DNA from: a virus
DNA length: 31,415 nt
Direction: 5' to 3' (one strand)
Virus record (IMG/VR): IMGVR_UViG_3300030329_004653
Coordinates: 1 to 31,415 of that record
Each line of letters opens with the position of its first letter. Position 1 is the first letter of the stretch. Below the pieces are notes generated by a model that did not search any database, was not told the DNA's origin, and saw only the letters and a list, made by a program, of their open reading frames with translations. Below, piece after piece: positions 9,679-31,415 of the stretch. Both the position numbers and the translations under genes were made by a program.

Positions 9679-10860
9679 TTATGTAATACCATCTATTTCA
9701 ACAACAGCACCGCCCTTTCCATCAATAGTAGTATTGACCAAAGAGTTAGAGTCAACTAACTCGTATGCTCTCATACCGAATTGTACAGATTCCCAAGCAG
9801 TTCCACCAATCTCGCTGGTGTCAATCCTTAATCCGTTACTGTGTCTGAATACAGCCATCGCTCTATCCCAAGCACCATACCAGATGCTAGTGTCCACAGC
9901 CTGTGGGTTTAAGAAAATTGGTGCACCAAAGATAGTTGCTGATTCAGGAGAAAGACCTAAGTCTCTGTTGTAGATTGGTGCAGACCCAGCAGTCAAGGAC
10001 ATAATCCTTTCCAAATTGTTTGGGTGCATCATCCACATTGTAGGCAAAGCCCTGTACTCCACAGCAAGTTCGTGGTAGCATTTCTTTAGGTGTGCATAGG
10101 TCAAAGCACCAGAAGTGGTTGGCTTATCCCAAGCAGTACCATCGATAGTTCCAGTAAAGTTAGAACCATCAGTAATTTCGTTTTCAATGAGTCTCCTCAA
10201 AGCAACGATTTGATTTGCTGTAGTTTCACCGATTAGGTCTACAGCAGTACCAGCCAAGAGTTCTTGTGACATATAAGTCAAAGCAACTGCTTTGTCAAGA
10301 GCAAAAGTCCTCTCAACGAAAGTTGGCTTTGTGTCAGTAGTGTCAGCATTTTCAGCCACGATTGCTGCTGTCAAGTCAGCGGAAATCGCTGGAACAGCAC
10401 CTGTAGTGGAAGTAACAGTAATGTTTCTCAAAACATCCTGCATCCTTGGTCTATCTATTTGCATTACAAAGAATTCATTAGCCAACAATTCAGTTGGTAC
10501 AGTAAATCCACCACTAGCATCTGTAGTAGACATTGGGTTGTCTGCTTTAGTGTAAATACCTGAATCTTTGATTTCTGCTCTCTTGTAGAAAGCATCTTTT
10601 CTCTCCCAGTCTTTCTGGAAGTGAGCCTGTGTTAAACCACCTAGATATGCACGAATTCCCTCGGCAGTTTTCCAAGTAGCATCAACAACAGGGTCTTTTG
10701 TGTAAGTGTTTCCACTTACTTTGATTTCCTTTCTTTCAACTTTAGTTTCAGCCTTTTCCTCTTTTGGTAAAGCATCTTTAACTGCTTTTTCCACGATTGG
10801 AGACAAAACTTCCTCTAAGTTAAGGTCAAGGTCATCATTTTTATTAGTGTCTTTTGACAT
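9679..10860 (-). CDS. major capsid protein, HK97 fold
   Basis: A 393-residue protein. The first 50 residues are charged and helical (a delta-like scaffold domain). Then come a linker and the characteristic start of the mature capsid domain, STTDASGGFTVPTELLANEF, followed by RPRMQDVLRNITVTSTTGAV and a long helix RRLIENEITDGSNFTG. These are standard features of HK97-type capsid proteins that are cleaved after the delta domain. The gene follows the prohead protease and is preceded by a GAGGT ribosome site. Length and layout are normal for the family. Confidence 0.95.
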   Translation of the reverse strand: MSKDTNKNDDLDLNLEEVLSPIVEKAVKDALPKEEKAETKVERKEIKVSGNTYTKDPVVDATWKTAEGIRAYLGGLTQAHFQKDWERKDAFYKRAEIKDSGIYTKADNPMSTTDASGGFTVPTELLANEFFVMQIDRPRMQDVLRNITVTSTTGAVPAISADLTAAIVAENADTTDTKPTFVERTFALDKAVALTYMSQELLAGTAVDLIGETTANQIVALRRLIENEITDGSNFTGTIDGTAWDKPTTSGALTYAHLKKCYHELAVEYRALPTMWMMHPNNLERIMSLTAGSAPIYNRDLGLSPESATIFGAPIFLNPQAVDTSIWYGAWDRAMAVFRHSNGLRIDTSEIGGTAWESVQFGMRAYELVDSNSLVNTTIDGKGGAVVEIDGIT

Positions 10861-16545: not shown

Positions 16546-16738
16546 CTTTCATCATCAGCGAGATGCCGAATGATATGGCTGCTGTCCAGCCAAGCACCCA
16601 GATTCGCCAATCCTCAATAATCCGAAGTCTCCTGTCAAGTCCAGATATTCCAGATTTAACCTCATCAATATCCTCTTTGATGGATTGAGTCCGCTCATCC
16701 ACCTTTCCTAAAGTTACCGACAGGTCCTCTTTTGACAT
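16538..16738 (-). CDS. 66-residue coiled-coil and membrane-anchor protein (XhlA-like)
   Basis: Starting at ATG 16738 (MSKEDLSVTLGKVDERTQSI), the protein has a charged coiled coil in residues 1-45 (IKEDIDEVKSGISGLDRRLR) and one C-terminal transmembrane helix (WVLGWTAAISFGISLMM). This layout is that of the small XhlA/hemolysin-type proteins that act with holins in phage lysis. A longer reading from 16828 adds a hydrophobic leader that overlaps the divergent promoter and looks unlike a protein. AAGGA precedes ATG 16738. It is the first gene of the leftward arm. Confidence 0.7.
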   Translation of the reverse strand: MSKEDLSVTLGKVDERTQSIKEDIDEVKSGISGLDRRLRIIEDWRIWVLGWTAAISFGISLMMKGV

Positions 16739-16772
16739 TATCCTTATATTAAGCGAAAAAACACTAAATGTA

Positions 16773-16801
16773 TTGACAAAGAGGCTGTTTTCAGTTAATA
16801 T
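16773..16801 (+). promoter_or_regulatory. near-consensus sigma70 promoter reading right
   Basis: TTGACA (16773-16778) is followed after exactly 17 bases by TAATAT (16796-16801), with an A-rich stretch upstream. Transcription would start near 16808 and run into the GC-rich non-coding region and then the small-gene array. It lies just upstream of the first leftward gene. Confidence 0.75.
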
Positions 16802-17192
16802 TAGCACAGGGAAGGGCATAATTAGCACTTACATACTAGAGAGTGAGAGAGAATAATTACAAATTATCCTAAGAGAGTTCACAAAACCAGAGTTTTTAGT
16901 TAGAGCATCAGCACTATATTTAGGGTCAGGCTAGGAAAAATCAATAGCCCCCATACCCCCCTAGGGTATAGCAATTTACCGCAAAAAGGCTACAGAATCC
17001 AAGCCAAGAAAGGGACTTTTGAGCATACCCCCGCTGGGTATCCCCGCCCCGCTTTCCTGCGGGTCTTTCTTTTCCTTGCTTTCTGGATTGCTCCCCCGCT
17101 CTCCTGGTCTCTACCTGTCCACCCCTAGAAATGATACTTGATAAACCTAGATTTCTATTAGCCCCGCATAGGGTCTTTCTATTGCCTGTATT

Positions 17193-17222
17193 TGCATACT
17201 TTCGCCTAGTTCCGTATGTCAA
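17193..17222 (-). promoter_or_regulatory. possible leftward promoter inside the non-coding region
   Basis: On the minus strand a perfect TTGACA (17217-17222) is followed after 18 bases by a poor -10 (TATGCA). If used, it would give the leftward structural arm a leader of about 450 bases. The weak -10 keeps confidence low. Confidence 0.25.
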
Positions 17223-17857
17223 CACACACTCAGGGGAAAATGTAGAGGATGCTCTCTATGGGGCTTATTTGCCCCTCTCCGTTTGCTTTCCCCTGGTGTA
17301 TCTGTTGCCCCTCTGGTAGTTCCTGCCTGTCTCCTTTTTTCCTGGTCTTGGATTTCTGCAGATTCTGGCGGGGCTTTTGGCGGTTTTGTTTGCCTGATTC
17401 TGCCCAGGTTTAGGCTGTTTGTCTAGTTTTTGCAAGGCTTTTTTCCTCGAGAGAATCCAGAAAGTCATATATCGATGTCTAGAATTCGGGTTTATGGTGT
17501 TATGATTCCCTTGGCGGATGGTTGATAGCCTGAAAGGATACCGCCCCCAGGGGTAGACCTCTGGGAACTGAAAGGTTGAAATTAGGGATGAGAAAGCCCT
17601 AGAGCCTGGGACAAGACCGCCCAGACTGACAAAGCCCCAGGGGGTAGAGCCAAGAGTAAACCTGGAAAGCCGATAGCCTGGCGATAGCCCAGGGGGTCAG
17701 AATACCCCTGGAGATTCTGGAAATTTAATATTCCAGAGGGTAGGGCGAAATATTCACCTGCAGAGAGTGAATGGCGGTATAGAGCCTGGGACAATCCCAG
17801 GGGCTAGGCAGTCCCTAGTTAAGTAAAAAATCATAAATAAATTAAATCTCAATAGGC

Positions 17858-17881
17858 GGGGGTTAGGGTTTCCTAGCCCCC
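17858..17881 (+). terminator. very stable hairpin near the end of the non-coding region
   Basis: GGGGGTTAGG pairs with CCTAGCCCCC (10 bp, one G-U) around a four-base GTTT loop, followed by AGAATTTGCG. It could end a separate RNA or form an attenuator before the small-gene array, but it lacks a proper U run. Confidence 0.45.
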
Positions 17882-17898
17882 CAGAATTTGCGATAATC

Positions 17899-17921
17899 TG
17901 CAGGGTCAAAAGACCCGCCTG
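17899..17921 (+). repeat. array hairpin, copy 0 (diverged)
   Basis: TGCAGGGTC, an AAAA loop, then GACCCGCCTG: a shortened relative of the array stem-loop, with GGGTC/GACCC as its stem. It stands before the first array gene, 28 bases ahead of the conserved leader. Confidence 0.5.
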
Positions 17922-17960
17922 AAAGGGTACAAAAAGATGCCGATTATTGGAGATAAATTT

Positions 17961-18164
17961 ATGCAAACAATAGTGTACAAACTCAAGACGGAAAGGGCAA
18001 GACAAAAAGCCCTAAAAAAGAGGTTAGAGGGGGCAATAATTACCCTCGCAGATAGGTTCTATCACCTCGAGGAAAAACAGGATAGGAGTATGTTGAAATC
18101 TAGAGCGGATGCCCTTCAATATTTCAATGATAAAATTGAGGAAATCATTAGCGATTTTAGATAG
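17961..18164 (+). CDS. array gene 1: small basic helical protein
   Basis: A 67-residue protein starting MQTIVYKLKTERARQKALKK. I chose ATG 17961 because it follows the leader GGAGATAAATTT that precedes nearly every gene of this array; an in-frame ATG 24 bases upstream has no such site. The protein is helical and charged, with many Lys and Arg in its first half and an acidic end (FNDKIEEIISDFR). It is unlike the acidic products further along. Function unknown. A stem-loop copy begins five bases after its stop. Confidence 0.75.
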   Translation: MQTIVYKLKTERARQKALKKRLEGAIITLADRFYHLEEKQDRSMLKSRADALQYFNDKIEEIISDFR

Positions 18165-18168
18165 AGTT

Positions 18169-18207
18169 AACCCTGCAGGGCGGAGAAATTCCGACCCTGT
18201 CAGGCTT
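18169..18207 (+). repeat. array hairpin, copy 1
   Basis: Nested stems: CCTG/CAGG outside, CAGGG/CCCTG inside, CGGA/TCCG at the tip, with single-base bulges (A, T) on the 3' side. A block of about 50 bases is identical to copy 2. Confidence 0.85.
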
Positions 18208-18251
18208 ATCTTATAGTCAGGTAAAAGACTCAAAAACCAGGAGATAAATTT

Positions 18252-18551
18252 ATGAGCAACAGAAAGATGATTAGGGAATATGACCAAGTAGGGGCGGACG
18301 GTTTCGCTGTAGCCCTGTCAGGATACACAGGCAGATGGGAGACCACTGAGGATATCACAGACTCAGGGAAAGCACAGGCTAGAATAATGGCACAAATAGA
18401 GGATGCCCGCTGGTGGTTAGCCAGGGCATCGGGAATTGTTAGCGAGTCCAAAAGGAAATCTAACGGGCTAAGCCCCGAGGATTTGGAACTTCTGGCGATA
18501 TGTCAGAACAACCTCGCCCTATGTCAATTTTATATGGAATATACCGAGTAA
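18252..18551 (+). CDS. array gene 2: hypothetical protein, helical
   Basis: A 99-residue protein starting MSNRKMIREYDQVGADGFAV. After the conserved AGGAGATAAATTT leader it reads mostly as helices (ARIMAQIEDARWWLARASGI, then LSPEDLELLAICQNNLALCQ) and ends in YMEYTE. The composition is balanced, with several Trp and two Cys in the last third. I do not recognise a family. It stands between hairpin copies 1 and 2, which are identical, so this gene could be gained or lost by recombination between them. Confidence 0.8.
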   Translation: MSNRKMIREYDQVGADGFAVALSGYTGRWETTEDITDSGKAQARIMAQIEDARWWLARASGIVSESKRKSNGLSPEDLELLAICQNNLALCQFYMEYTE

Positions 18552-18566
18552 AAAGCGGTAAGAGTT

Positions 18567-18605
18567 AACCCTGCAGGGCGGAGAAATTCCGACCCTGTCA
18601 GGCTT
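18567..18605 (+). repeat. array hairpin, copy 2
   Basis: Same nested stems as copy 1 and identical over about 50 bases. A second shared block, AGACAAGACCAAAAAATC, leads into the ribosome site and is found again after copy 4. Confidence 0.85.
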
Positions 18606-18650
18606 ATCTTAGAGAGTCAGACAAGACCAAAAAATCAAGGAGATAAATTT

Positions 18651-18737
18651 ATGAGGGTTTTATTAGGTAAAAATATGATAATTTACACCAAAACCAAAAA
18701 AGGCAAAAAAGCCAAGATTAGGGGATGGGTAGATTAA
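18651..18737 (+). CDS. array gene 3: 28-residue basic peptide
   Basis: A very short frame (MRVLLGKNMIIYTKTKKGKK and eight more residues) behind a perfect AAGGAGATAAATTTATG leader. The leader is the reason to accept it as translated. The peptide is strongly basic with a hydrophobic start. It may be a functional small peptide or the remnant of a longer array gene. The following 120 bases to the next gene hold only hairpins. Confidence 0.55.
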   Translation: MRVLLGKNMIIYTKTKKGKKAKIRGWVD

Positions 18738-18856
18738 GACCGCAAGGGGCGGGAAACCGCCCCCCAAGGTAAGACTCGCAAGGTAACCCCCGCAAGGGTG
18801 AGGGTTATTTTAAGACCCGAAAAGGGCAACCCCGCAAGGGGCAAGGAGATAAATTT
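18738..18856 (+). other. string of small hairpins between array genes 3 and 4
   Basis: This stretch has no full array stem-loop. Instead it carries GGGGCGG-GAAA-CCGCCCC (18746-18763) and a run of tiny stems with GCAA or GAAA loops (ACCCCCGCAAGGGT, CCCGAAAAGGG, CCCCGCAAGGGG) up to the leader of the next gene. Short Cs, a GNRA loop and matching Gs recur before other array leaders as well. Confidence 0.6.
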
Positions 18857-19063
18857 ATGAACGAAGAAATTAGTATAGATGTGAGGGCGGTATACGATAC
18901 TACGATATATGTAACTCAGGCAGATTATGACAGAGCCGAGAGGGAATACATAGCGGACTATGGAAAAAAGCCAGACAGGGAAGAAGTTTTGAATTCCCTA
19001 GTATGGGATAACCTCGATGAGGTTACAAATGATAGCCCAGAACTAGAAATCTTAGAATATTAA
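18857..19063 (+). CDS. array gene 4: small acidic protein
   Basis: A 68-residue protein starting MNEEISIDVRAVYDTTIYVT. It is strongly acidic (I count 19 Asp/Glu against 6 Lys/Arg). Strands in the first half are followed by a helical part (YDRAEREYIADYGKKPDREE) and an acidic tail (NDSPELEILEY). It follows a perfect leader. The family is not recognised. Compact acidic early proteins of phages are sometimes DNA mimics or inhibitors of host enzymes; that is only a possibility here. Confidence 0.8.
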   Translation: MNEEISIDVRAVYDTTIYVTQADYDRAEREYIADYGKKPDREEVLNSLVWDNLDEVTNDSPELEILEY

Positions 19064-19068
19064 GTTTG

Positions 19069-19112
19069 AAACCTGCAGGGTTAGGGGGCAACCCCGCCCT
19101 GTCCAGGTTTTT
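19069..19112 (+). repeat. array hairpin, copy 3
   Basis: AAACCTG/CAGGTTT outside (7 bp), CAGGG/CCCTG inside, tip GGGG-GCAA-CCCC with a GNRA loop. It ends in TTTTT, so it may also work as an intrinsic terminator. Confidence 0.85.
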
Positions 19113-19133
19113 AATTAAAGTTATGAAATTTTA

Positions 19134-19260
19134 AGACCTAGTCAATCATAGGGAGTAATTAACCTGAGTGATTCCCAGGGGAAAAGGGGCTAATCTAGAA
19201 GTCAGACCGAAGTAACCAGGATGGTAAGGGACAAGTTCCACTAGGCAAGGAGATAAAGTT
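19134..19260 (+). other. geneless spacer, possibly structured, ahead of a start-stop codon pair
   Basis: CCTAGT (19137-19142) can pair with ACTAGG (19240-19245) and close a domain of about 100 bases that contains GGGA/TCCC and many short G and C runs, composition like the 17.5 kb region. It ends in the leader AAGGAGATAAAGTT, but the ATG is followed by AAT TAA. It could be the place of a lost gene or a small regulatory RNA. Confidence 0.4.
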
Positions 19261-19269
19261 ATGAATTAA
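19261..19269 (+). other. two-codon frame ATG-AAT-TAA behind a full array leader
   Basis: The conserved ribosome site is intact (one base change), yet the frame ends after Met-Asn, and the stop codon lies in the outer stem of hairpin copy 4. Either a gene was deleted cleanly between leader and hairpin, or a start-stop element holds ribosomes there. Confidence 0.55.
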
Positions 19270-19310
19270 TCCCGCAGGGTTAGAGGGCAACCTCGCCCTG
19301 TCAGGGTTAA
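19266..19310 (+). repeat. array hairpin, copy 4
   Basis: TTAATCCCG/CAGGGTTAA outside (8 of 9 pairs, one G-U), CAGGG/CCCTG inside, tip GAGG-GCAA-CCTC. Relative to copy 3 the tip shows a paired change (G-C to A-T), which supports a real RNA stem. Confidence 0.85.
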
Positions 19311-19353
19311 TTTTAAGTGTCAGACAAGACCAAAAAATCAAGGAGATAGATTT

Positions 19354-19488
19354 ATGAGTTACGAAAAATTGCAAAAAAGATGTATGTTTTATAAAGACCT
19401 TTGGTTGAAAGAAAGAGAGGAGAAATGGACATACTTAATTGAGTGTAGGAGATTGGAAGAAGAAATTTTGGCGATTGATAAGAAATAG
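19354..19488 (+). CDS. array gene 5: 44-residue charged helical protein
   Basis: Starts MSYEKLQKRCMFYKDLWLKE after AAGGAGATAGATTT and continues as one long charged helix (TYLIECRRLEEEILAIDKK). It has two Cys and looks like a short coiled coil or small DNA/RNA-associated peptide. Function unknown. The leader block in front of it (AGACAAGACCAAAAAATC) is the same as the one before array gene 3. Confidence 0.7.
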   Translation: MSYEKLQKRCMFYKDLWLKEREEKWTYLIECRRLEEEILAIDKK

Positions 19489-19516
19489 GCAACTTTCAAT
19501 AATAAATCCTAAATAG

Positions 19517-19561
19517 TTAATCTTGCAGGGTTAGGGGGCAACCCCGCCCTGTCAGGGTTAA
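19517..19561 (+). repeat. array hairpin, copy 5
   Basis: TTAATCTTG/CAGGGTTAA outside (9 pairs counting G-U), CAGGG/CCCTG inside, tip GGGG-GCAA-CCCC. It is followed by several GNRA mini-hairpins and the 14-base word AAGGTCATACTCGC (19604-19617). Confidence 0.85.
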
Positions 19562-19638
19562 TTTTAAGACCCGTAAAGGGCAACCTCGCAAGGGTAAGAC
19601 CGCAAGGTCATACTCGCAAGAGGTAAGGAGATAGATTT

Positions 19639-19920
19639 ATGAGCGATAACACATACAACGGATGGACAAATTGGGAGACTTGGCTAACTGCCTTACATAT
19701 CAACGAAACACCAAGCATATTAGAGAGTTTCCAAGAGATGTACCACTACGACAAACCCACCTGCAGTATTGGAGAAAATGACAAGATTCTAAAAGAATAC
19801 ATAATCGAATTTTTTCACGAATTTAGCGGGGGCTATGTTGAGGAAACACTCCACATTGAAAGCCACCACATTGATTGGGCTGAAATATGTGATTCTCTAT
19901 ATGAGGAAGAGGGATGGTAG
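19639..19920 (+). CDS. array gene 6: very acidic 'GWTNWETW' protein
   Basis: A 93-residue protein opening MSDNTYNGWTNWETWLTALH. The 'YNGWTN-x-ETW' motif recurs at the N-terminus of a small protein family in phages, plasmids and host chromosomes (DUF7249-like, from memory); its function is not known to me. This member is very acidic, 20 Asp/Glu against 3 Lys and no Arg. It follows the leader AAGGAGATAGATTT. A role against host defences or as a host-enzyme inhibitor is possible but only inferred from size, charge and location. Confidence 0.82.
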   Translation: MSDNTYNGWTNWETWLTALHINETPSILESFQEMYHYDKPTCSIGENDKILKEYIIEFFHEFSGGYVEETLHIESHHIDWAEICDSLYEEEGW

Positions 19921-19941
19921 TATGAGGATTATGAATAAATT

Positions 19942-19976
19942 AACCCTGCAGGTTGTGAGAGCAACCTGACAGGCTT
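19942..19976 (+). repeat. array hairpin, copy 6
   Basis: CCTG/CAGG outside, then a continuous CAGGTTG/CAACCTG stem closed by a TGAGAG loop, with one bulged A. The inner stem differs from copies 1-5 on both sides, so pairing is kept. Confidence 0.8.
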
Positions 19977-20017
19977 ATTTTAATAAAAGACCTAGAAATA
20001 GGCAAGGAGATAAATTT

Positions 20018-20518
20018 ATGGAAACATTAAGAGAGGGCTATTTACCGAAAGGCAAGTACCTAATTTCCGACCCCTGTTATATTCAATATAGCAAAAGGGA
20101 CAAGGCGGATACAGATAACTCGATTTGGAGTGATTTCTGCGATGCCTTACACAAAAAGGAAAGAGAGACAAACCGCAATGGGGTTGTTTTTGACTTTAGG
20201 GGTTACGAGTTATTTGTATCAGGTACTGCTCACGGAGATGGAAGTTATTGCGGAAATAACGGAGAAATTTACGGAGTGGATGCGGGAATTTTGGGATGTG
20301 TGCCTGTAGAGGTTGCAGACCCTGATTTTGTCCAGGAAGTAAAAGAGGGCAAAAAGTCGTATATCACTTATCACGAATTTGATTCTGAGATTGAGTGTTA
20401 TTACGATGAGGGCAAGGTTGTTATGGGAAGTGTTGAGATAGACACAGACCCGCCAGACCCCGATGCCTGTCCAGAATGTGGATATATCGATTGTTGCGAT
20501 GAGGATTGTGAGGGTTGA
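20018..20518 (+). CDS. array gene 7: 'YLISDPCY / HGDGSY' protein with Cys-rich tail
   Basis: A 166-residue protein, the longest of the array. It contains GKYLISDPCYI, later SGTAHGDGSY and YGVDAGILGCVPVEVADPDF, a motif order I know from conserved hypothetical proteins of phages and bacteria whose function has not been settled. The C-terminal 20 residues hold five Cys (CPECGYIDCCDEDC), probably a small zinc knuckle or disulphide-rich tail, and the protein as a whole is strongly acidic. It starts after a perfect AAGGAGATAAATTT leader. Confidence 0.85.
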   Translation: METLREGYLPKGKYLISDPCYIQYSKRDKADTDNSIWSDFCDALHKKERETNRNGVVFDFRGYELFVSGTAHGDGSYCGNNGEIYGVDAGILGCVPVEVADPDFVQEVKEGKKSYITYHEFDSEIECYYDEGKVVMGSVEIDTDPPDPDACPECGYIDCCDEDCEG

Positions 20519-20528
20519 TAAAAGTTTG

Positions 20529-20566
20529 AAACCTGCAGGTTGTGAGAGCAACCTGTCCAGGTTTTT
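20529..20566 (+). repeat. array hairpin, copy 7
   Basis: AAACCTG/CAGGTTT outside (7 bp), CAGGTTG/CAACCTG inside, loop TGAGAG, bulge TC, then TTTTT-type tail. It combines the outer stem of copies 3 and 9 with the inner stem of copy 6. A CCCGAAAGGG mini-hairpin follows before the leader. Confidence 0.85.
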
Positions 20567-20601
20567 AATTTAAAATCCCGAAAGGGTAAGGAGATAAATT
20601 T

Positions 20602-20757
20602 ATGGAGTCTTACAAAAAGTACAAAAACCCACAAAACGACTACGAGGTGATTTGGAACAAATATTGTTCCTGTCGCAAATGGGAATTGCTTGAAGTGATT
20701 TATTCACTTGAAAAGCATAACCAAGTGACACCCTGCTACGACCCCAACAGGAAGTAG
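20602..20757 (+). CDS. array gene 8: 51-residue protein with CxC motif
   Basis: Starts MESYKKYKNPQNDYEVIWNK after a perfect leader and contains YCSCRKWELLEVIYSLEKHN and a late TPCYDPNRK. Three Cys (CxC plus one) might bind metal. It shares the opening 'MESY' with the next array gene, but beyond that the two differ. Function unknown. The stop is followed after four bases by hairpin copy 8. Confidence 0.75.
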   Translation: MESYKKYKNPQNDYEVIWNKYCSCRKWELLEVIYSLEKHNQVTPCYDPNRK

Positions 20758-20761
20758 TTTT

Positions 20762-20799
20762 AACCCTGCAGGGCGGAGAAATCCGACCCTGTCAGGGTT
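20762..20799 (+). repeat. array hairpin, copy 8
   Basis: AACCCTG/CAGGGTT outside (7 bp), CAGGG/CCCTG inside, tip CGGA/TCCG with bulges A and T on the 3' side. Downstream come repeated AAGGTAGAAACCGC words and a CCCGAAAGGG mini-hairpin. Confidence 0.85.
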
Positions 20800-20879
20800 T
20801 TAATTACAAGGTAGAAACCGCAAGGTAGAAACCGCAATTATCAATTTAAAAAGACCCGAAAGGGCAAGGAGATAGATTT

Positions 20880-21137
20880 ATGGAAAGTTATGACCAAAAA
20901 TACAACAGGTATATTATTGTGGATTGGGCGAACAACAGATGTTTTAGGGATTTGAGATACAGAAATGGCTATAAAGAATTTAATTCTTTTCATTGTGCCT
21001 GGGAGTATCTAAATAAAGTCTCTTATCAATTGTTTGGAGACAATCAAGACAAAAGGGATGAGTGGGAAGAAGATTTTTATTTCTACCTAGAATCCGATTG
21101 GTTGAACGATGAGGATAACGGAGTATACGAATATTAA
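20880..21137 (+). CDS. array gene 9: small acidic aromatic-rich protein
   Basis: An 85-residue protein starting MESYDQKYNRYIIVDWANNR. It is rich in Tyr, Trp and Phe (for example EEDFYFYLESDWL) and acidic (19 Asp/Glu against 10 Lys/Arg), ending in NDEDNGVYEY. It follows AAGGAGATAGATTT. No family recognised. The acidic tail resembles that of array gene 4 (both end in EY before a GTTTGAAACCTG hairpin), which may hint at shared history of these two cassettes. Confidence 0.8.
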   Translation: MESYDQKYNRYIIVDWANNRCFRDLRYRNGYKEFNSFHCAWEYLNKVSYQLFGDNQDKRDEWEEDFYFYLESDWLNDEDNGVYEY

Positions 21138-21142
21138 GTTTG

Positions 21143-21181
21143 AAACCTGCAGGGCGGTTTTGCCGACCCTGACAGGTTTTT
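21143..21181 (+). repeat. array hairpin, copy 9
   Basis: AAACCTG/CAGGTTT outside, CAGGG/CCCTG inside, tip CGG/CCG with a TTTTG loop and two bulged A's, followed by a T run. This is the last clear copy of the array. Confidence 0.85.
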
Positions 21182-21197
21182 AATTTCAGGGTTACAC

Positions 21198-21320
21198 CTG
21201 AAGATAATTTTATTTCCTAATGGGGCAGTTAGGTTTGCTATGCAAATACCTGCAATGAGAAAAACAGGCGGAGAATGGAAAAGCAGTAGGAAATCCGAAA
21301 GGTGGAAATACTGCAACTAA
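21198..21320 (+). CDS. possible array gene with a lost or CTG start (40 residues)
   Basis: An open frame reading LKIILFPNGAVRFAMQIPAM and then a basic tail (KTGGEWKSSRKSERWKYCN). The first two lines look like a genuine protein start with CTG in place of ATG. Upstream there is no array leader. A leader-like word GAAGATAATTTTATT (3 changes in 15) overlaps the frame but is out of register. It may be a decayed cassette or a gene using CTG. Confidence 0.35.
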   Translation: MKIILFPNGAVRFAMQIPAMRKTGGEWKSSRKSERWKYCN

Positions 21321-21349
21321 CATAAGACCCCCCAAAGGAATTAAAGGAG

Positions 21350-21499
21350 ATGATTTTATTAAAGGTCTTGTTCGTGTTGAAATTGGTCTCAAGGTCAAGG
21401 TCGCACTCGCAAGGTAAACCCCGCACTATTGAAATTATGATTTTCCCCTGGAGAGAAATGGGGCATAGAGCAACAGGTCGCACCGATTGTAAGGTTTAG
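21350..21499 (+). CDS. possible small gene of 49 residues
   Basis: A frame from ATG 21350 to TAG 21499 that begins MILLKVLFVLKLVSRSRSHS and ends in MIFPWREMGHRATGRTDCKV. GGAG touches the ATG directly, so the ribosome site is too close, although AAAGGA lies further up. The middle is made of the GCAAGGT-type repeated words found throughout the array, which weakens the case for coding. It could be a decayed cassette. Confidence 0.3.
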   Translation: MILLKVLFVLKLVSRSRSHSQGKPRTIEIMIFPWREMGHRATGRTDCKV

Positions 21500-21596
21500 G
21501 TCGCAAGAGGTCAACTTCGCATTGTTTTTTTTCAAGCAAACCAAGGGGAAATCAAAATACTGACAGATAAGTCATAAAAATCAAGGAGACTAAAGA

Positions 21597-21692
21597 ATGA
21601 AGAAAAAGAAAAAAGAAAGTTTAAAAAAGTTTACAAAAAGACTAGAAAATGCATTTAACGATTATCTAGAAAAGAAAAACATTAAACTTTAA
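21597..21692 (+). CDS. 31-residue lysine-rich peptide
   Basis: ATG 21597 follows AAGGAGACTAAAGA, a good ribosome site that differs from the array leader. The peptide MKKKKKESLKKFTKRLENAF plus eleven residues is a basic amphipathic helix. It is the last gene before the terminator-like hairpins. It might bind nucleic acid; function unknown. Confidence 0.55.
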   Translation: MKKKKKESLKKFTKRLENAFNDYLEKKNIKL

Positions 21693-21735
21693 AGGGGAGA
21701 GAGAGGGGGGATATATAAAGGGGGGAGAGAGTAGG

Positions 21736-21765
21736 GTTTTATTTATTATAAAACTCTCTAGAGAG
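21736..21765 (+). repeat. inverted repeats in a purine-rich intergenic stretch
   Basis: GTTTTAT/ATAAAAC with a five-base loop (21736-21754) overlaps the 12-base palindrome CTCTCTAGAGAG (21754-21765). Both are embedded in GAGAGAGG-type runs. Confidence 0.5.
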
Positions 21766-21774
21766 AGGGGGTAT

Positions 21775-21806
21775 GGGGGAGAGAGATGCAATCTCCCCCT
21801 GCTTTT
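21775..21806 (+). terminator. terminator-like hairpin ending the small-gene array
   Basis: GGGGGAGA pairs with TCTCCCCC (8 perfect pairs) around a nine-base loop, followed by TGCTTTT. It lies between the last small gene and the next promoter. Confidence 0.55.
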
Positions 21807-21826
21807 CTGAAAAAGACCATTTCGAT

Positions 21827-21855
21827 TTCAAAAATAGCAATACCTGTGCTAAGAT
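21827..21855 (+). promoter_or_regulatory. probable promoter of the second rightward unit
   Basis: TTCAAA (21827-21832), 17 bases, then TAAGAT (21850-21855) preceded by TGC, an extended -10. A 9-bp inverted repeat, ATTGTTGTA/TACAACAAT (21860-21896), lies where transcription would begin and could be an operator or a leader hairpin. Confidence 0.45.
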
Positions 21856-21932
21856 GACTATTGTTGTACGGATAAACCAAAAATTCATACAACAATAATA
21901 AAAAAATCCCGAAAGGGTAGGAGACGAAAAAG

Positions 21933-22166
21933 ATGCAAAACATTTTAAAGACATCGTTAGAAATGCTTTTAAAGGTACTAACGGATGCACAAACCACAGA
22001 ACAGGAAAAACTTTCAACCTATGAAAAATATCCTGATTTGGAAAGTGAGGACAAGGGACATATTTTAGGATACATTGATGGATTGGGCTATGCGGTAAAT
22101 ATAGTCAAGAGTCAATTGGATATGGTCAAATTGGCGGAAGATTTTACAGGGAGTAGGGAATGTTAA
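21933..22166 (+). CDS. small hypothetical protein, first gene of the second unit
   Basis: A 77-residue protein starting MQNILKTSLEMLLKVLTDAQ. It is helical with a short loop around GHILGYIDGLGYAVNIV and an acidic character. It is preceded by a CCCGAAAGGG mini-hairpin and AGGAGACG, a variant of the array leader, so the same signal type extends into this unit. Its stop overlaps the next start. Function unknown. Confidence 0.7.
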   Translation: MQNILKTSLEMLLKVLTDAQTTEQEKLSTYEKYPDLESEDKGHILGYIDGLGYAVNIVKSQLDMVKLAEDFTGSREC

Positions 22167-22528
22167 ATAGTGAAAGTGAATTTTATTCAACATTATTTGA
22201 TGCTACAAAGCCGATGAGGGAATCTATAAGACCGCATAGAGAGGTGTTGCACAATGACCCAAAAATGCCTAAAAAGAACTCCCAATGTTGGAAGATACTA
22301 AAAAGGTTTGTAGAAAGCAATGGAGTCCTTTTCACAGGGGACTTTATGCTTATGTATATCGCAAGATATGGTGCAAGGATAGGAGACCTACGGAACAAGT
22401 ATGGTTGGACTATCACAACAAAGAAAATCAAGCAAGGAAAGACTCAATACACTTTGGATGAGGATGAATACTACAGACTCTATATGAAGAAGTTTGAGAT
22501 TTTCGGAGATGATTTAAATTTTAATTAA
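22160..22528 (+). CDS. winged-helix DNA-binding protein
   Basis: A 122-residue protein. After a polar N-terminus it shows the pattern of phage winged-helix domains: a helix QCWKILKRFVESNGVLFTGD, a turn, the recognition-type helix RYGARIGDLRNKYGWTI and a wing of strands (TTKKIKQGKTQYTLDEDEYY). Such proteins occur near replication and regulatory genes and often act as origin-binding or regulatory factors. It overlaps the gene before it by seven bases and is followed by an HTH regulator. Confidence 0.72.
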   Translation: MLNSESEFYSTLFDATKPMRESIRPHREVLHNDPKMPKKNSQCWKILKRFVESNGVLFTGDFMLMYIARYGARIGDLRNKYGWTITTKKIKQGKTQYTLDEDEYYRLYMKKFEIFGDDLNFN

Positions 22529-22539
22529 AGGAGAGTAAT

Positions 22540-22809
22540 ATGGAAAAAGCAATAGAATTTCAAAAATATTCTGTACCGAGTGTTTATGTCAATATAGGTT
22601 TGATATACGAATTTTGTGCAGAAAACAATTTGTCAATCCAAGACTTTTGTCAGGCAATAAGGATACACAGGGCAAGTTTTTACCAATACAGAGAGGGTAA
22701 ATCCCCAAGTTTGCCTATAAGGTCAAGGATTCAAAAATTTACAGGAATACCAAATGATAAGTTGTTTATACCCAATGGTAAAAAACAACAAGGCAGAGTT
22801 GTGGGATGA
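22540..22809 (+). CDS. helix-turn-helix regulator (XRE/Cro-like)
   Basis: An 89-residue protein. Residues 20-70 form a Cro/repressor-type domain: LIYEFCAENNLSIQDFCQAI (helices 1-2), RIHRASFYQYREGKSPSLPI (helix 3 and turn) and IQKFTGIPNDKLF (end helix). It probably binds operators in this phage and may switch gene expression. A good ribosome site (AAAGGAGAG) precedes ATG 22540. The 118-base gap after it contains small inverted repeats that could be its targets. Confidence 0.78.
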   Translation: MEKAIEFQKYSVPSVYVNIGLIYEFCAENNLSIQDFCQAIRIHRASFYQYREGKSPSLPIRSRIQKFTGIPNDKLFIPNGKKQQGRVVG

Positions 22810-29698: not shown

Positions 29699-31415
29699 TT
29701 AATCTTCATCTCCAGCCTGTATGTATTGTGCTGTATTGTTTCTATCATAATCCTCTAATCTAAAATCAAACCTAGCACCCTCTGCATTTACTGTAAACTC
29801 ATAAGAAGTCAAAACACCAGAGAAAGGAGTTGTTCCAGGGTTGGAAGTTCCCACCTTGTCATCTGTTACTGTTATTGTTTGTCCAATAAAAGGAATGTTG
29901 TTTGAGTTTACGAAAGGATTTAATCCATCTAAAGAGTAATCCCTTGCCTGAAATCTTCTCAACTTGTCATCAAGGAACTGTTGTCCTAGACCTTGTGCCT
30001 CACTAAAAGAGAAATTCTCAAGATTTATGGTATTTATCTTATAGCCCATATTTGCTGTTTTTTTGTAAGATGGAGAATAAGGTAATCTTTCAATATTGTC
30101 TTTTAGGGATTGGTTTTTTGTTGTTCTTACAAACAATGCTTTTTTTCCAACTCCTCTTACATTAAATCCAGATAGGAAGTTTCCTGTCTGAACATAACCA
30201 GCCCTCTCTCCGCCAGTATTAGATAAATCTGTATTGTCTATGGCATTTTGAAAGGCAGTTTTGACATAAGGTGTTCCGTAGTACCATTTGTTATGTCTTT
30301 TGTAATCATCAAAACTGTCGTTACTCCAACCCCAAGCATCTTGTCTGTTTCCGTTCCAGTAAGGTCTCCCTGAACCCTGAGTCCAAACATCATCTGCTTG
30401 TGTGAATGTTTCACAAGTTGAACCATAACCCCAAGTCTGGTATCCCATATCCACATTTGTTTGCCTTAGATGTTCTCTACCCTCTCCCCACCAGCCTGGT
30501 TGTGCAAATGGAGATGCCAATGCTAATATCCTTATTCCCTTAACTGAATTTACATCACACTTCTTTAATGTGAACTTTCTTCCTGTTTCGGTTGGCATCA
30601 TTACAGAATTATCATTAAATCTTTCCCAAGTCGTGTCTGAATGGAAAGGGTCTGATACATCTATGTCGGTTGAAACCTCAACCCTGTAAGTTCCGCCTCT
30701 TCCAATACCCATCATACGAACATTATCTCCAGCAAGACCAATATTGAAAGAAAATTCATCTATATCTAGAGCCATTCCACCCCTAAACCAGAATGTAATC
30801 AAATGTAAAGGAGTTTTGTTTCCATCATCACTCAATGTGGGTATTCCAAACTTTCCACCCATGTTTATTCTTTGATTTCTATATGCAACTGTACTTGCTT
30901 CTTTCCATTCACATTTCTTCCAAAGAGATTGGTAAAATATTGCTGTGCTTATTCCAGAGCCATAAATGGGTTCTGTAGCTGAATCCCAATTCTCAACATC
31001 TGGACCAAGACCTCTCAGATGACATACATCATAAAAATATTCTGGAATTGATGAACCACTAGAATATCCATTGGAATCAAACCCAGACTGCCTAGCATTG
31101 TTTGTTGGAACTCCAGAAGCAGCAAAATTACAACCATATTGAAGAATATCTGTTGGGGAGAAATAGTTCTGTTCTGGCATTTGGACCTGCATAAGCTGGG
31201 CAGTGTATACATCAGACATATCCCTTTCCCTTGTAAGGGATGTTACAGACCCAGCAGCGAGTGTTATGTCGGCTGATGACTTCTGGCTCAATGGCTTGAA
31301 TATGACCTTGTTTGTGTTGTCGTCATATCTCAAATCATAAAGCAACCCAGAATCTTCACACAGTTTGTCAATCAGTGGTTTTGGGTTTATTGGAACTTGA
31401 CCACCTTGTGCAAAG
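29699..31415 (-). CDS. tail-tip / central tail protein, C-terminal part (gene enters from the right end)
   Basis: An open frame of 572 codons from the last base of the window to TAA at 29699, without an upstream stop. The first 190 residues repeat the end of the left-hand fragment at about 92% identity (CEDSGLLYDLRYDDNTNKVI and onward). After that come tail-hub-like beta regions (YRVEVSTDIDVSDPFHSDTT, GYQTWGYGSTCETFTQADDV) and a closing half that includes NMGYKINTINLENFSFSEAQ, typical of baseplate-hub proteins. The TTG at 31345 is internal and not a start. The protein continues that of 1-2621. Confidence 0.85.
   Translation of the reverse strand, partial: FAQGGQVPINPKPLIDKLCEDSGLLYDLRYDDNTNKVIFKPLSQKSSADITLAAGSVTSLTRERDMSDVYTAQLMQVQMPEQNYFSPTDILQYGCNFAASGVPTNNARQSGFDSNGYSSGSSIPEYFYDVCHLRGLGPDVENWDSATEPIYGSGISTAIFYQSLWKKCEWKEASTVAYRNQRINMGGKFGIPTLSDDGNKTPLHLITFWFRGGMALDIDEFSFNIGLAGDNVRMMGIGRGGTYRVEVSTDIDVSDPFHSDTTWERFNDNSVMMPTETGRKFTLKKCDVNSVKGIRILALASPFAQPGWWGEGREHLRQTNVDMGYQTWGYGSTCETFTQADDVWTQGSGRPYWNGNRQDAWGWSNDSFDDYKRHNKWYYGTPYVKTAFQNAIDNTDLSNTGGERAGYVQTGNFLSGFNVRGVGKKALFVRTTKNQSLKDNIERLPYSPSYKKTANMGYKINTINLENFSFSEAQGLGQQFLDDKLRRFQARDYSLDGLNPFVNSNNIPFIGQTITVTDDKVGTSNPGTTPFSGVLTSYEFTVNAEGARFDFRLEDYDRNNTAQYIQAGDED
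30846..31415. repeat. right copy of the diverged terminal overlap
   Basis: Gap-free match to bases 1-570 at about 89% identity, in the same reading frame of the same gene. Differences are concentrated at third codon positions, and some 16 of 190 residues change. Confidence 0.9.

Follow-up and report, generated by a model that had tools for sequence, protein, structure and literature searches.

Genome organization and a gene-free gap between the two arms

The window, by which we mean the whole 31,415-nucleotide stretch that was analysed, represents an HK97-type tailed phage that has not been cultured and covers nearly all of its genome; its terminase, portal, protease and capsid proteins belong clearly to their families. 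The first and last 569 bp (positions 1–569 and 30846–31414) match each other with 90% identity, an overlap which suggests that the record is a closed circle put together from two strain variants; it is thus close to a full circle, without a marked genome end. Late genes are read to the left from 16741 and early genes to the right from 17961, and between these arms lies a gap of ~1.2 kb (Table 1) in which neither the list of open reading frames nor codon scores gave a convincing gene. A sequence-only reading had described positions 16808–17935 as GC-rich, hairpin-dense and without genes, lying between divergent arms, and as a candidate large structured RNA; the lack of genes and the flanking arms agree with our results, while the bounds had to be widened to those in Table 1. 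Open frames inside the gap score at most 0.15 bits per codon, a range shared in part with the lowest-scoring genuine small genes. The minus strand of the left half has weak open frames, among them one of 67 aa that starts at 17468; these frames were rejected as genes, their codon scores being weak and the 17468 start having no visible Shine-Dalgarno sequence.

The rise in GC is moderate and uneven (47.6% in 16808–17935 vs. 39.2% in the window), with 16808–16944 being AT-rich (36% GC), so that the region is GC-rich only in part. A further AT-rich stretch lies at ~17825–17855. The left half (16945–17475) has 39% purine on the plus strand and is therefore pyrimidine-rich, unlike the rightward genes; strand composition switches at ~17450 (17448), within the gap, and the minima of the cumulative GC skew and of purine fall in the gap as well. 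The repeat AGAGCCTGGGACAA that had been pointed out is indeed present twice, inside hairpins at ~17601 and ~17782, whereas the purine-rich loops of the right half, offered as a sign of RNA, did not clearly exceed those in shuffled sequences. Another gene-free stretch was observed at 21190–21560, with repeated short CGCA-bearing motifs, e.g., GGTCGCACTCGCAAGG.

Location and composition bear on whether the gap might be a replication origin or a packaging (cos/pac) region in which the hairpins act as DNA, a possibility also raised in the earlier reading. The position between divergent arms, the switch at ~17450, the two minima and the AT-rich stretch at ~17825–17855 are all in keeping with this; however, divergent transcription would produce a skew switch just as well, one strand has the larger fold-energy excess (see below), a search for iterons gave no clear array, and no origin protein was recognized among the early genes searched, most early proteins being without a family. 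With no further positive evidence beyond position and composition, we consider an origin or packaging role very doubtful.

Table 1. Features of the gap and of the adjacent early operon, in positions of the window.
Feature	Position	Strand	Basis or remark
Gene-free gap between leftward late arm and rightward early arm	16742–17960		ORFs, codon scores, early start box
Sigma-70-like promoter TTGACA-17-TAATAT, rightward into gap	16773–16801	+	Sequence match; activity inferred
Two ATTAGCAC copies, 21 bp apart, at start point	16800–16829	+	Pattern match
Left half, better fold on minus strand	16945–17475	-	17375–17329 long-range paired with 16946–17016 (minus strand)
Right-half structured domain, multibranch	17500–17837	+	Predicted; z -4.3, 0/100 shuffles
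10-bp hairpin GGGGGTTAGG-GTTT-CCTAGCCCCC, without T-run behind	17858–17881	+	Predicted fold
Structure beside and partly over first early ribosome site	17886–17954	+	Predicted fold
Ribosome-site box GGAGATAAATTTATG (GGAGATARAKTTATG)	17949–17963	+	Box at 10 places
Bulged hairpin copy 1	18163–18213	+	Intergenic pattern
Bulged hairpin copy 2	18561–18611	+	Intergenic pattern
Bulged hairpin copy 3	19063–19116	+	Scores as intrinsic terminator
Bulged hairpin copy 4	19262–19314	+	Intergenic pattern
Bulged hairpin copy 5	19513–19565	+	Intergenic pattern
Bulged hairpin copy 6	19936–19982	+	Intergenic pattern
Bulged hairpin copy 7	20523–20570	+	Scores as intrinsic terminator
Bulged hairpin copy 8	20756–20805	+	Scores as intrinsic terminator
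Bulged hairpin copy 9	21137–21185	+	Scores as intrinsic terminator
Span with 14 of the 15 early-arm GNRA mini-hairpins	18746–20864	+	Count vs. shuffles

The predicted promoter and the first early gene

At its left end the gap carries a match to a sigma-70 promoter, directed inward (Table 1), and the same arrangement occurs at the equivalent position in the relatives L001 (10 of 12 positions) and L006 (a perfect 12 of 12). A TTGTCAA on the opposite strand is invariant across the three-way alignment of the window, L001 and L006. The pair of ATTAGCAC copies at the predicted start point is a possible operator: the pattern ATTAGCACW has just these two matches in the window, two or more matches being found in 11 of 100 shuffles as well, and L001 has two copies of ATTAACAC at the equivalent place. 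No promoter scoring at least 9 of 12 was found on either strand at 17450–17500. On the late side, the first late gene is preceded in the window (16730–16760), L001 and L006 by TAATAT or TATTAT ~7–8 nt before its ATG, a hexamer that would suit a leaderless late mRNA.

The ribosome-site box occurs first at the right end of the gap, and its other nine places are at downstream starts in the early arm. Because this box is common to the early starts, we moved the start of the first early gene from 17937 to the ATG at 17961, which is most likely the correct one judging from the sequence, and with it the end of the gap to 17960. One downstream copy belongs to a gene-less cassette (19118–19316), in which ATG AAT TAA comes after the box, with a hairpin element immediately behind it, and which looks as if its gene had been lost. 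We considered 19118–19262 as a further structured RNA and rejected it (z +0.8).

Predicted RNA structure of the gap

When perfect stems were counted (at least 6 bp with a loop of 3–10), 17476–17936 had five, compared with 1.1 in shuffles (a count reached by 1 of 100), and 16945–17475 had two compared with 0.8, which is not significant; hairpin density, as first proposed, is thus a property of the right half and only partly of the left. Fold energies gave a similar picture, with a z of -4.4 on the plus strand for 17476–17936, and for 17500–17960 a z of about -5.4 (-5.3 to -5.5) on the plus strand (reached by none of 100 shuffles) vs. a weaker -3.9 on the minus strand. The left half had the opposite preference, with z values of -2.1 to -2.4 on the plus strand and -3.0 to -3.6 on the minus strand, and a 250-base scan (40 shuffles) placed a second local peak at 17150–17399, strongest on the minus strand (z -5.8). 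The right-half domain is predicted to be bounded by a closing helix (17500–17507/17829–17836) and to contain an inner helix that closes the multibranch loop (17538–17545/17773–17780), each of 8 bp; their mean pair probabilities were 0.93 and 0.97, respectively, when 17500–17840 was folded alone. The structure next to the first early ribosome site is predicted to consist of a helix (17891–17898/17942–17949) and two hairpins (17903–17916 and 17917–17928). When the whole 1.13 kb was folded on the plus strand the z was only -2.4 and the right domain was partly broken.

These values need to be read against the rest of the window. In the whole-window scan the mean z on the plus strand was -2.6 for the early arm (17961–21600) vs. 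-1.9 for the gap, i.e., the early arm is at least as structured as the gap, so the density of structure in the gap is not unique. The strongest scan window of all was capsid coding sequence (10501–10800, minus strand; z -5.4, reached by none of 200 shuffles). Since coding sequence reaches the same z, fold energy is weak proof of a non-coding RNA: it shows structure, and does not by itself identify such an RNA.

Hairpin families in the early operon

Structured RNA hairpins occupy nearly every gap downstream in the early operon. The main family is a bulged hairpin, AACCYTG-CAGG...CCTG-T-CAGGTT, of which nine copies stand at early gene ends (18163–21185). Across the eight distinct copies 91% of the pair cells are standard pairs (reached in 1 of 2000 shuffles) and eight cells are changed on both sides (reached in 2 of 2000), these copies being paralogs within one genome, such that the compensatory changes counted are not independent events. 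Apart from copies 3, 7, 8 and 9, no intrinsic terminators were predicted on either strand of 16700–22600, and the gap itself contains none. The second family comprises mini-hairpins with GNRA tetraloops, of which 17961–21600 has 15 on the plus strand, compared with 0.8 ± 0.9 in shuffles, and none on the minus strand; this restriction to the plus strand points to a role as RNA. Many of them lie directly ahead of ribosome sites or within the intergenic elements. Neither family extends into the gap, where the bulged-hairpin pattern is absent and no GNRA mini-hairpins were found on the plus strand.

Searches for relatives and comparison with large phage RNAs

A search of the whole window against Rfam at the gathering score gave no match to GOLLD, ROOL, OLE, for which a check had been proposed, or to any other family; a relaxed search of 16600–18300 (E up to 5) gave a single chance match, to FAM13A-AS1_2 (16.6 bits vs. 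a cut-off of 38). A look for homologous regions in related phages had also been proposed; searches among phages, plasmids and IMG/VR identified no relative of the gap, and the early arm showed no similarity to phages. IMG/VR relatives, sought with the terminase, the portal, the capsid and a 109-aa late protein, share the late arm only (capsid 91–92%, portal 77–86%). None spans the gap: the two whose contigs come nearest to it break off ~200–230 bp upstream of the gene at 16741, where the GC-rich part is about to begin or is just beginning. In the same database the first early protein had no relative, a 343-aa early protein matched two phages that are related in that gene only, and patterns for the bulged element and for the ribosome site matched only unrelated sequences. 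The capsid and portal were not found in GTDB genomes, and the remainder of G001 held no early arm.

The want of relatives would be expected if the gap were fast-evolving, gene-poor filler or decayed genes and cassettes, whose hairpins would be leftovers of lost intergenic elements; the weak minus-strand frames of the left half and the gene-less cassette remnant at 19118–19263 (box, then ATG AAT TAA) fit with this too. This reading is unlikely in view of the fold-energy excess in the right half and the absence of the intergenic-element pattern from the gap.

Among known large phage RNAs, GOLLD and ROOL resemble the gap in being long, ORF-less, structured stretches of phage genomes, and are often found near tRNA islands, an association rather than a strict requirement (PMC12286853). 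The gap differs from them in having no covariance-model match, no tRNA island and no homologs found; there are no tRNA genes in the whole window. By analogy, the closest precedent for the large RNA first proposed is that of phage ICP1, whose most abundant transcript, identified by RNA-seq, is ~800 nt long and lies in a 1-kb ORF-less space (PMC7567579); the likeness is in the ~1-kb ORF-less phage gap, and an RNA from it would here be a predicted one. A stand-alone large non-coding RNA of this kind, acting in trans or as a particle, or a divergent pair from ~17450–17500, could explain why the fold-energy excess lies on the plus strand in the right half and on the minus strand in the left, why composition switches strand at 17448, and why a predicted closing helix bounds the right domain. 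Nevertheless, we judge it unlikely, as Rfam, tRNA and homolog searches were all negative, there is neither a promoter of at least 9 of 12 at 17450–17500 nor a terminator in the gap, and coding sequence can match its z. That new large structured RNAs, one or two in number (right half plus, left half minus), are expressed from the gap as separate molecules of a class without known relative seems to us quite unlikely. What stands of the large structured RNA is the predicted structure of the right half, which fold energy supports, with more excess on the plus strand; the Rfam, homolog, terminator and tRNA results do not show a separate molecule.

A proposed structured leader of the early operon

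We lean towards reading the gap as the region that controls the rightward early operon and as its long, structured 5' leader, which would be untranslated and act in cis. A leader is the simplest reading because the promoter points inward, the gap has no terminator, its right end has the ribosome site common to the early genes, and the operon behind it is itself structured as RNA. If the conserved promoter fires, transcription would start at ~16808 and, were the whole gap transcribed, would run rightward for ~1.15 kb before reaching the first early gene (17961); the right part of this leader would fold into the multibranch domain, the 10-bp hairpin and the structure flanking the ribosome site (Table 1). 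Of the ways in which the folded leader might act in cis, we rank the stability or processing of early mRNA first, read-through by polymerase of terminator-like hairpins, as with the put RNA of phage HK022, second, and gating of translation of the first early gene third. HK022 put is a short structured RNA of the early leader that makes polymerase read through early terminators in cis, and lambdoid early genes mostly have terminators ahead of them (PMC9378689). The likeness is in a structured RNA after an early promoter and terminator-like hairpins among the early genes, and a put-like order is present here, with a promoter match at 16773 (its activity predicted), the gap, and four predicted terminators downstream; however, put is ~70 nt long, has two stem-loops and binds RNA polymerase, whereas the structured part of the gap is predicted to cover ~460 nt.

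The main difficulty for a leader is the left half, which is pyrimidine-rich on the plus strand and folds better on the minus strand, as if transcribed leftward, a bias for which one transcript running rightward does not account; a divergent RNA pair or an origin would fit it better. Also counted against a leader are the low z and partly broken right domain of the full-length plus-strand fold, the weakness of fold energy as evidence given the capsid coding sequence, and the lack, on the plus strand of the gap, of the GNRA mini-hairpins that characterize the operon. If a leader is nonetheless correct, the early operon would alternate small genes with structured RNA (leader, bulged hairpins and GNRA mini-hairpins), and would provide a compact new case in which to study how phages use RNA structure to regulate early mRNA at the levels of read-through, stability and translation; if instead the gap yields a separate RNA, it would add one more large phage RNA of unknown function.

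In the early region of phage T7, RNase III sites are hairpins between early genes; the early operon described here likewise has hairpins between its genes, but differs in that several copies have terminator-like T tails. T4-type phages have very stable CUUCGG tetraloop hairpins that are enriched between genes, and a leader hairpin stabilizes mRNA in the case of the gene 32 leader (PMC8948821). The likeness to the present phage is in the enrichment of tetraloop hairpins between genes, while here the loops are GNRA rather than CUUCGG and are found outside the gap, farther downstream in the early arm. The GNRA mini-hairpins are often in tandem before ribosome sites, e.g., ahead of the gene at 19639.
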